NCBI GenBank assembly: GCA_016841245.1
Contig: JAENZN010000028.1
Coordinates: 1 to 43,410, forward strand
DNA: 43,410 bases
Source: Syntrophomonas sp.
Lineage (GTDB): Bacteria > Bacillota > Syntrophomonadia > Syntrophomonadales > Syntrophomonadaceae
Direction of reading: 5' to 3'
The first letter of the stretch is position 1, and every line of letters begins with the position of its first letter. Below are positions 21,283 to 31,752 of the stretch, piece by piece. The translations under genes and the position numbers were made by a program. Below the pieces are notes generated by a model. It made no database searches, was not told where the DNA came from, and saw only the letters and a program-made list of their open reading frames with translations.

Positions 21283-21759
21283 TTATATCGCAACCAGTCT
21301 TCTGGCGTCCTTTTTTCTGGAAAGTTTATAATATTGTTCATAAAAATCGAGAACCTCAACGCTTATTACTTTTCTATCCTGAGTTTTCAGGGCGCGTAAT
21401 AAGTTATCGAAACTGATCCGTCCAAAGTCTTTTACTACTTCGTTGCTGTCCAGGTTTTCAACCACTTCACAATAACGACCGTGAACCTGTTCAAATACTC
21501 CGAAATACAATTCCCGGATCTGTATCACTCGTTTCATGATCTGCTCAACCTCAACCCCCTCTATATCGACCATTGCCACCAGGTCATCGATCAGATTGTT
21601 AAGCAGTCGGTTATTAAATATAGCAGCCATTACTTCCTTGCGGTACTGCTTGGATAACAGGTAACGCATATAATCCAGAAATTCACCTTGAGCGGAAGAT
21701 CTAAGCAGTGAGTATCCATTCAGCAGCTCCAGTTCCCTTTCAGATACATCTCCATTCAC
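21283..21759 (-). CDS. Unknown helical protein
   Basis: This 158-residue protein begins at GTG 21759 after GGGGAGAGG. It is leucine-rich, charged and predicted all helical, with no signal peptide, membrane segment or metal motif. I do not recognise a family. It ends 45 bp before the beta-CASP nuclease gene on the same strand, so the two are probably co-transcribed; whether it binds that nuclease is unknown. Confidence 0.6.
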   Translation of the reverse strand: MNGDVSERELELLNGYSLLRSSAQGEFLDYMRYLLSKQYRKEVMAAIFNNRLLNNLIDDLVAMVDIEGVEVEQIMKRVIQIRELYFGVFEQVHGRYCEVVENLDSNEVVKDFGRISFDNLLRALKTQDRKVISVEVLDFYEQYYKLSRKKDARRLVAI

Positions 21760-21906: not shown

Positions 21907-23082
21907 TTATCCTTTTCTATGTCGAGCCAGAAAAGAGCCAATTCTATCCAGGGCCTGATCAATATCAGCTACACTTGCAGCATAACAGCATCGTACATGT
22001 CCATTGCCTATTACTCCAAAGGCATTACCCGGCACTACCGCGACTTTTTCTTCCATAATCAATTTTTCGCTGAATTCTTCACTATTCAGTCCAGTATTTA
22101 CTATGGAAGGAAACGCATAGAAAGCACCCTGGGGCTCAAAACACTCCAAACCAATTTCCCGGAATCCTGAAAGCATAATCTTTCTCCGGTAATTGTAATT
22201 CTCCACCATTTTTTTCATTTCAGTCTCGCCATGACGAAGAGCCTCCAGGGCAGCTTTTTGGGCCATAATAGGTGCACACATAATAGTATACTGGTGTATT
22301 TTAGTCATAGCCCCAATCAGGTCGGGATGACCACAGGCATATCCAATACGCCACCCGGTCATAGCAAAAGCTTTGGAAAAACCATTAAAAACGATGGTAC
22401 GCTCCTTCATCCCCGGCATGGCAGCTATGGAAACGTGCTGTCCATTATAAGTCAGTTCCGAATATATTTCGTCAGACATAACAATCAGATCATTTTTAAT
22501 AATAATATCTACCAGAGCCTCAAGGTCTTCATGACGCATAATACCACCGGTAGGATTATTAGGATATGCCAGTATAAGTACTTTGCTCTTCGGGGTTATG
22601 CTTTTTTCCAGCCTATCAAGTCGAACCCGATATTCGTCTTCAGCAAAGGTCTCCACTGCTACAGGAACACCGTAAGCCAGAGATGCTCCAGGCGAATAAG
22701 ATACATACGAAGGTTCAGGAATCAGAACTTCATCCCCCGGTTCAATTATAGCTCTTAAGGCTAGATCTACCGCTTCACTAACTCCTACGGTGACCAGGAT
22801 TTCTCGCTCCGGGGAATAGCTTACCCCTATATGCCTTTTCATATAGAGTGCAATCTCTTCTCTTAATTCAATCAAACCCTGATTAGAGGTATACATGGTA
22901 TAACCATGTTCCAGGCTGTAAAAGCAGGCTTCCCTTATATGCCAGGGAGTTACGAAATCCGGTTCACCCACCCCCAGGGAAATGACCCCCTCCAACTGAG
23001 AAACCAGATCGAAAAATTTTCTTATCCCGGAAGGGGGGATGGTCTGTACGGTTTTAGATACATATTTATCCATAGTGCTCAT
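21907..23082 (-). CDS. Class I/II PLP aminotransferase, probably alanine- or aromatic-related
   Basis: The 391-residue protein has the aspartate-aminotransferase fold. SLGVGEPDF at 35-43, YPNNPTGG at 173-180, SDEIYSELTY at 203-212 and PLP lysine K237 in FNGFSKAFAMTGWRIGY are all intact. It resembles the PatA/AlaA/AspB-like group. Its ATG overlaps the stop of the Lrp-like gene by 4 bp (ATGA), so the two form one operon. The T-box upstream appears to read an alanine codon, which suggests that the enzyme makes alanine from pyruvate (inference). Sequence alone does not fix the substrate. Confidence 0.85.
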   Translation of the reverse strand: MSTMDKYVSKTVQTIPPSGIRKFFDLVSQLEGVISLGVGEPDFVTPWHIREACFYSLEHGYTMYTSNQGLIELREEIALYMKRHIGVSYSPEREILVTVGVSEAVDLALRAIIEPGDEVLIPEPSYVSYSPGASLAYGVPVAVETFAEDEYRVRLDRLEKSITPKSKVLILAYPNNPTGGIMRHEDLEALVDIIIKNDLIVMSDEIYSELTYNGQHVSIAAMPGMKERTIVFNGFSKAFAMTGWRIGYACGHPDLIGAMTKIHQYTIMCAPIMAQKAALEALRHGETEMKKMVENYNYRRKIMLSGFREIGLECFEPQGAFYAFPSIVNTGLNSEEFSEKLIMEEKVAVVPGNAFGVIGNGHVRCCYAASVADIDQALDRIGSFLARHRKG

Positions 23083-23576
23083 GGACTGATCACCAGCCTT
23101 TTATCTTCCTGCGGACTCTCGAAAATAAAATTATCTTGTTTATAGCGCTTGAGAATGAAATGAGTAACTGTACTCTGAACTTCATCGAGAGTCGACAGTT
23201 TATGGGAAACAAACAAGGCAATTTCCTTCATAGTATCCGCAGTTACTATAATAGATAAATCATAAGTACCACTCATCAAGTACACTGATCTGACTTCAGG
23301 GAAACGGCTGATTCTTTCCGCAACACCGTTAAACCCCACTTCTCTGACCGGGGTTACCTTGACTTCAATCATGGCTTCTACCCCATTCTCACCAAAGCGA
23401 TCCCAGTTGACCACCGTGTTGTATCCCAGTATATATTTTTCCTTTTCCAGATGCGCCAGTACTTCCCGGACATGTGCTTCGTCCTCATCCAGCATAGTAG
23501 CTATAGTCTTGGGACTGATTTTCGCATCATGCTCCAGGATTTTTAATATTTTCTTCTCTAGTTCCATTTTTCTCAA
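23079..23576 (-). CDS. Lrp/AsnC family transcriptional regulator
   Basis: The 165-residue protein has an N-terminal winged helix (KKILKILEHDAKISPKTIATML, about 8-50) and a C-terminal RAM/AsnC ligand domain (VEAMIEVKVTPV, then VYLMSGTYDLSIIVTADTMKEIALFVSHKL). Members sense amino acids and assemble into octamers. It is the first gene of a T-box operon and is coupled to an aminotransferase. The start may be TTG 23576 (four bases after GGGGG plus spacer) or ATG 23567, which has overlong spacing. The regulator could sense the amino acid that its partner enzyme makes. Confidence 0.88.
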   Translation of the reverse strand: MRKMELEKKILKILEHDAKISPKTIATMLDEDEAHVREVLAHLEKEKYILGYNTVVNWDRFGENGVEAMIEVKVTPVREVGFNGVAERISRFPEVRSVYLMSGTYDLSIIVTADTMKEIALFVSHKLSTLDEVQSTVTHFILKRYKQDNFIFESPQEDKRLVISP

Positions 23577-23611
23577 AAAGCCCCCTTAGTTTATTTTATT
23601 TATAAAAAAAT

Positions 23612-23639
23612 AAAAACCCTCATCCCACCAAGGGACGAG
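23612..23639 (-). terminator. T-box terminator
   Basis: CTCGTCCC pairs with GGGATGAG (one G-T pair) around TTGG and is followed by GGTTTTTATTTTTTT. The 5' arm would otherwise pair with the T-box core region to form the antiterminator. Confidence 0.85.
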
Positions 23640-23844
23640 AGTAATATTTCCCGCGGTACCACCCTAATTGCATAAATGCCCGCTCCGTAAATCATAACGG
23701 TTTCCATGAAACCGTCCGGCTTAGTACCTGTTGAAGTATTACACCGGCGCTCCCAGGTGGCTTTCACTGTTAACCTGCTCCCGGATCGCAGCAACCCCGG
23801 TTCTCTGCCAGCAGGCCTTCAGATACTCTTCTGATCATCGCTTT
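23612..23844 (-). ncRNA. T-box leader, specifier GCC (alanine)
   Basis: On the minus strand Stem I opens with AAAGCGATGATCAG and AGTA at the specifier loop, followed by AGAGAACCGGGG and GCTGCGA distal motifs. The 3' side reads GTGAAA-GCC-ACCTGG-GAGC, the standard GAA-A-NNN-A context just before Stem II, so the specifier codon is GCC at 23761-23759 (alanine). Stem III is an ACGGTTTC/GAAACCGT hairpin. GGGTGGTACCGCGG at 23664-23651 is the T-box core; its TGGT pairs with ACCA, fitting the A73 of tRNA-Ala. A terminator and a T-run follow. Uncharged tRNA-Ala should switch the lrp-aminotransferase operon on. Confidence 0.92.
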
Positions 23845-23861
23845 AAATATAAGTTTTAACT

Positions 23862-23890
23862 ATGCTATCACTACCAGGAACCTACGTCAA
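23862..23890 (-). promoter_or_regulatory. Sigma-A type promoter for the T-box operon
   Basis: TTGACG (23890-23885), a 17-bp spacer and TAGCAT (23867-23862) lie about 18 bp before the Stem I start. Confidence 0.55.
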
Positions 23891-23983
23891 GTCGAAAATT
23901 ATGGACTGTTAAATCAGGTATAGATTTCCTGCACTATTTTTCCGAATTGTGCATATTTATAGTTCTATCTGGAGGTGATGCTG

Positions 23984-24211
23984 ATGCACTATTTATCAAA
24001 TCTGAGCCAGGAAGAACTTAATGTAGCTCGTAAAATTGATGAATATTTTAATCTTGAACATATGAGTTTTCAGGAAAAATTGTTTCATGCCCTGCTTATA
24101 GCCCAGCATGAATTAGAGGCCGAGTATTACGGCAATGAATTCGAAAAATCCAGGATACTTGAGTTTCGTGATATTCTGCTGATGCTCCTAAAGAAATTCC
24201 CCCGGGAATAG
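23984..24211 (+). CDS. Small unknown acidic protein
   Basis: The start is placed at ATG 23984 because GGAGG at 23971-23975 lies eight bases upstream; a GTG at 23975 would overlap that site. The 75-residue product (MHYLSNLSQEELNVARKIDE) is helical, charged and without membrane segments. I recognise no family. It is the only plus-strand gene between 3 and 28 kb, diverges from the T-box operon and stands alone. Confidence 0.65.
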   Translation: MHYLSNLSQEELNVARKIDEYFNLEHMSFQEKLFHALLIAQHELEAEYYGNEFEKSRILEFRDILLMLLKKFPRE

Positions 24212-31675: not shown

Positions 31676-31752
31676 TGGTGGGCCATGAAGGAATCGAACC
31701 TTCAACCTTCTGATTAAGAGTCAGCTGCTCTGCCTGATTGAGCTAATGGCCC
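31676..31752 (-). tRNA. tRNA-Lys (anticodon CTT)
   Basis: The minus strand gives acceptor GGGCCAT/ATGGCCC, a normal D-arm, anticodon loop CTCTTAA with anticodon CTT, a T-arm (GAAGG/CCTTC) with TTCGATT, and an encoded ACCA. The base of the anticodon stem has a G-A mismatch; all other stems are intact. Confidence 0.93.

Follow-up and report, generated by a model that had tools for sequence, protein, structure and literature searches.

In many Firmicutes alaS carries a T-box, and in the anti-TRAP (at/rtpA) operon of B. subtilis a T-box raises a regulator of the metabolism of the same amino acid, as we propose below for alaR. Anti-TRAP is a protein antagonist concerned with tryptophan, and differs in this from AlaR, a DNA-binding protein of the Lrp type concerned with alanine. 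The T-boxes of alaS in C. acetobutylicum and B. subtilis, which control alanyl-tRNA synthetase, are transcriptional and alanine-specific, have a UGGU bulge and a GCU specifier, and respond to tRNA-Ala with A73 (PMC4695836). The alaR-alaT gene pair occurs in Bacillus and relatives as yugG-yugH. A passage in PMC12893347, which cites Sidiq et al. 2021, names B. subtilis AlaT (YugH) as the major aminotransferase for alanine synthesis; an earlier survey had YugH as uncharacterised (PMC6522883).

We analysed a T-box leader that precedes alaR-alaT in Syntrophomonas. The whole stretch of DNA studied (the window, 43,410 nt) belongs, as contig C29, to a genome of 3.9 Mb, whose nearest named relatives by AlaR, with the genome's own records possibly left out of the comparison, are Syntrophomonadaceae such as Thermosyntropha lipolytica. 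Like the alaS leaders, this one appears transcriptional and specific for alanine, and has the UGGU bulge, but it stands before alaR-alaT instead of the synthetase gene and reads GCC, which is fully complementary to the anticodon of tRNA-Ala(GGC), where the others read GCU. Our main reading, to which we give a probability of roughly 0.86, is that a transcriptional T-box specific for tRNA-Ala(GGC) controls alaR-alaT and that alanine scarcity raises the operon. At the level of sequence, the RNA parts, their specificity, the operon and its conservation are established. The alaR-alaT T-box is itself a standard switch, and the contrast that a preliminary description of the locus drew with the usual T-box targets was overstated, since T-boxes before amino-acid biosynthesis genes are commonplace.

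The operon and its leader

The transcription unit lies on the minus strand. A sigma-70-type promoter (23862..23890, -) consists of TTGACG at 23890-23885, a 17-nt spacer and the extended -10 element TGATAGCAT ending at 23862; the sequence scan reads it as TTGACG-17-TAGCAT, and TTGAC with T(G)NTAGNAT is kept at this site in nearly all relatives. The first gene, alaR (23079..23567, -; Pfam PF01037 and protein alignment), encodes an Lrp/AsnC-type regulator of 162 aa and is preceded by a Shine-Dalgarno sequence, AAGGGGG (23581..23587, -), that is kept in the genus. Its start is an ATG that relatives retain; the TTG listed first, at 23576, is missing from the nearest relative. The stop codon of alaR overlaps by 4 nt (ATGA) the start of alaT (21907..23082, -), which encodes a class I PLP aminotransferase of 391 aa. 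The preliminary description had placed a T-box before an Lrp-type regulator and an aminotransferase at 21907-23844; the matches to Rfam RF00230 and Pfam bear this out, and the coordinates agree with the leader and operon as mapped here. Downstream of alaT, after a gap of 147 nt in which a terminator search found none, lies a gene for 158 aa without a family match (window 21283-21759, -). It also follows alaT in the loci of two relatives (L037, L038), and may be a member of the operon.

As judged by cmscan, the leader (23628..23847, -; Stem I, linker, Stem III and antiterminator) matches RF00230 over its full length (1-219/219) with 98.9 bits (gathering score 93) and an E-value of 9.9e-21. The same leader precedes alaR in 29 of the 29 relatives fetched first; this and the E-value exclude chance. 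Of 15 loci that are more distant or truncated, 11 have the leader as well. The T-box bulge UGGU (23658..23661, -), placed by the Rfam alignment, is invariant in an alignment of 40 leaders (A1) and complementary to the ACCA end of tRNA-Ala (A73). The antiterminator (23631..23665, -), made of an AGGG/CCCU and a GCGGG/CUCGU helix, is conserved as a pairing in the aligned leaders: 98.6% of cells are paired, versus 57-74% when slid, and three pairs have changed on both sides. An intrinsic terminator hairpin (23616..23642, -), behind which comes a T-rich tail, was found by scan and is conserved likewise, with 93% of cells paired versus 31-62% when slid, including pairs changed on both sides. The two structures are mutually exclusive, the strand CUCGUCCC, which is the 5' arm of the terminator, being common to both; such a shared strand is expected of a transcriptional T-box.

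The best reading of this arrangement is that alanine starvation would raise AlaT and AlaR together. When alanine is scarce, the anticodon of uncharged tRNA-Ala(GGC) would pair with GCC and its free ACCA end with UGGU; the bound tRNA would hold the antiterminator, and RNA polymerase would continue into alaR and alaT. With tRNA-Ala charged, the terminator would form and transcription would end. The specifier and its 3' neighbours, GCCACCU (23761-23755, -), are complementary to the T-box strand AGGGUGGU (23665-23658, -), and the two are paired without tRNA both in RNAalifold and in the single-sequence fold, a pairing that could possibly represent a self-masked off state.

The gene pair, its regulator and its enzyme

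We used the AlaR alignment to collect 80 named loci, among them Bacillus, Paenibacillus, Lachnospiraceae and Dehalococcoidia records. In every one of the 80, with or without a T-box, the two genes share a strand and alaT comes after alaR. Gene order and protein families are the same in Syntrophomonas and in Bacillus and relatives, AlaT identity being about 53-63% in the Bacillales loci. Twenty-two of the 80 have a T-box core upstream of alaR, namely loci of Syntrophomonadaceae, Moorella, Carboxydothermus, Heliobacterium, Thermincola and relatives of Desulfotomaculum and Pelotomaculum, whereas none was found upstream of alaR in any fetched Bacillus or Paenibacillus locus. The gene pair is therefore old and the T-box confined to one part of the phylum, so that one gene pair gains or loses an RNA switch between lineages; the age of the linkage also accounts for the presence of a regulator in a T-box operon. 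The function of a widely conserved and little-studied regulator-aminotransferase pair thereby becomes open to test in several anaerobes, among them Moorella, Carboxydothermus and the Syntrophomonadaceae.

AlaR has a clear C-terminal AsnC/RAM ligand-binding domain (PF01037, AsnC_trans_reg, 58.9 versus a cut-off of 25 bits). Its N-terminal helix-turn-helix scores below the Pfam cut-offs (19.5 versus 27 bits for PF13404, 19.5 versus 21.9 for PF13412), and the full-length sequence matches Lrp structures. Judging from its family, AlaR may plausibly be an alanine sensor that regulates the alaR-alaT promoter, and feedback on alanine metabolism is probable for a regulator of the Lrp type. The message that encodes AlaT also encodes AlaR, and the 4-nt overlap couples the two; AlaR would then add a second layer of control, with a putative ligand and target and with either sign of action. 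The T-box might instead control the operon alone, with AlaR a passenger of the old pair or a regulator acting elsewhere. The pair is indeed equally tight in Bacillus and Paenibacillus, where the T-box is missing, and a shared operator upstream of the T-box is not apparent: inspection of the regions upstream of 40 T-box loci and of 36 Bacillales loci, with 7-mers counted in the latter, led us to recognise no convincing AlaR operator, and yielded promoter elements and lineage-specific words that are AT-rich or, like TGTAATAT, promoter-like. Yet AlaR sequences of T-box genomes share 43-85% identity and 23 invariant columns, a degree of conservation that points to selection, and Lrp-type proteins usually regulate neighbouring genes. 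We regard a T-box acting without AlaR as a serious possibility, though not the probable case.

The intergenic region between alaR and a divergent small gene contains a conserved block, AATAGTTCAGAAAAACTTTACC and GCATATTATTA. We considered AATAGTTCAGAAAAACTTTACC as an AlaR operator and set it aside, as it is situated towards the divergent gene; the block looks like a sporulation-type promoter for that gene. The divergent ORF itself (window 23975-24211, +) encodes about 78 aa, has no Pfam match and lies beside the alaR leader in many relatives.

AlaT matches Pfam Aminotran_1_2 (PF00155) with an E-value of 1e-75 and has the lysine motif of class I PLP aminotransferases, SKAFAMTGWRIGY. Its best NCBIfam model is PRK07682, at 570 bits, with the PatA-like PRK07683 far behind at 414 bits. 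Since the score lies below the equivalog cut-off of 620, the enzyme is a likely but not a certified orthologue of B. subtilis AlaT; the cut-off was exceeded in one of 14 control genomes, so the model is probably Bacillus-centred. In this genome we found no alanine dehydrogenase (best match 19.9 bits versus a cut-off of 392) and no T-box before alaS (L252, G000:C40:128563-131121, -), which has a short leader. From these two results, alaR-alaT appears to be the sole T-box output for alanine in this genome. AlaT would form alanine by transamination of pyruvate, glutamate being the most likely amino donor.

An alanine T-box could also govern an enzyme that serves mainly another purpose, either as a broad aspartate/aromatic aminotransferase or in alanine breakdown, and would then do no more than set the level of that enzyme. 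The solved chains closest to AlaT, 1gd9/1dju, are named as aspartate and aromatic aminotransferases, so that the substrate range may be wide, and class I gamma aminotransferases are often broad. This is difficult to reconcile with an Ala-specific T-box conserved in many families, with the membership of AlaT in the family of B. subtilis AlaT and with a genome in which no alanine dehydrogenase was detected; breakdown fits poorly with a T-box, which activates its gene at starvation and so suits synthesis. We consider another main purpose improbable, and retain alanine synthesis as the probable role of AlaT.

The specifier codon

The preliminary description had read the specifier as GCC, for alanine, and proposed a covariance-model alignment as a check. 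We performed this alignment, and it placed no codon other than GCC in the specifier loop (23759..23761, -, read as 23761-23759): the Rfam alignment gives the Stem I context as GAA-A-GCC-A-CC, so that GCC occupies the specifier position. Of the 40 leaders of A1, 39 have GCC in the codon column and one has GCU, which likewise encodes alanine; any of the four bases occurs just before the codon, and nearly all leaders have A or G just after it. A further 43 leaders added to A1 had GCC in 42 and one unclear case (L148), giving 81 GCC, one GCU and one unclear among 83 leaders that are not all independent, some of the further ones coming from the same genomes as the first set.

The reading rule was also checked within the genome, where at the same position 11 out of 11 other T-boxes carry a codon for the amino acid that their own genes serve; the rule is therefore valid here. 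These codons are ATC (ileS), TTC (pheS), TGG (trpS), CTC (leuS), GGC (glyQS), TGC (cysE-cysS), TCC (serC-like/serA), TTC (aroF/pheA), CTC (ilvD), ATC before a 2-oxoacid:ferredoxin oxidoreductase and TGG before a transporter. The ATC leader of the oxidoreductase operon (L011, G000:C18:71842-72074, +) is an observation in its own right, and would suggest that branched-chain amino acids are made by reductive carboxylation under tRNA-Ile control.

The tRNA-Ala(GGC) of the genome has A73 (3' end ...CTCC-A-CCA) and an anticodon that matches GCC fully. Its A73 agrees with the earlier remark that the core TGGT suits tRNA-Ala. The bulge has no power to separate alanine from proline, because tRNA-Pro has A73 too, and any base after CC makes a proline codon; nevertheless a different specifier register, whether shifted downstream by one base to CCA/CCG (Pro) or upstream by one base to NGC (Ser, Gly, Arg, Cys), is very improbable and we reject it, since the Rfam alignment and the 11 self-consistent T-boxes identify GCC, with a purine next to it on the 3' side, as the codon, the G of GCC is invariant in A1 with no need for it in a proline codon, an upstream codon would vary among four amino acids, and the GCU of one homologue is a synonymous alanine change.

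A tRNA-Ala(GGC) gene within the leuS leader

More unusual than the alaR-alaT T-box is the location of the gene for its presumed ligand. A single match for tRNA-Ala(GGC) was found in the genome, and this gene, CCA included (G000:C33:33544-33619, -), lies within Stem III of the leuS leader, a leucine T-box (G000:C33:33489-33775, -; specifier CTC; L006, L055). We examined the corresponding loci of relatives (L065-L094, L254, L256, L257, L266, L269-L288). ARAGORN detected tRNA-Ala(GGC) before leuS in 23 of the first 30 loci, with the T-box core after the tRNA. A signature pattern, consisting of a tRNA 3' half closely upstream of a T-box core, was matched by 52 of the order's 63 genomes and by 88 of 398 in the phylum; on reading the list, about 78 of the 88 phylum matches were tRNA-like, in some 27 families. 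A reversed-pattern control produced stray matches in far fewer genomes, and leuS was downstream in most of 20 phylum loci examined. The nested arrangement thus recurs, by sequence comparison, across many families.

The nested gene is Ala(GGC) in all 43 loci checked, and in most of them it sits exactly at the tip of Stem III. The arms of Stem III covary between lineages (GACA/UGUC, AACAA/UUGUU, GGCAAA/UUUGCC and GGUAAAUA/UAUUUACC), and a register test gave a mean of 5.2 pairs for arms of the same locus versus 3.0 for arms from different loci; a generic search for helices around the nested tRNA did no better than shuffles. In a literature search that covered sources other than the main T-box surveys, we found no published description of a tRNA nested in a T-box.

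The nested tRNA lies upstream of the T-box terminator and is therefore transcribed with or without read-through into leuS. The leader would presumably work around the tRNA, and alanine and leucine supply may be tied. That the two controls are wired together through this single gene, the ligand of the alaR T-box, is a tentative proposal which we would rate below even odds. If true, the supply and processing of tRNA-Ala(GGC) would depend on the leuS promoter, and possibly on the leucine antitermination decision, and excising the tRNA would split the leuS leader. The arrangement thus poses a testable question, namely how a riboswitch functions with a tRNA that needs to be excised from its middle. 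Another tRNA gene, for tRNA-Lys(CTT), lies in the window itself at 31676-31752 (-).
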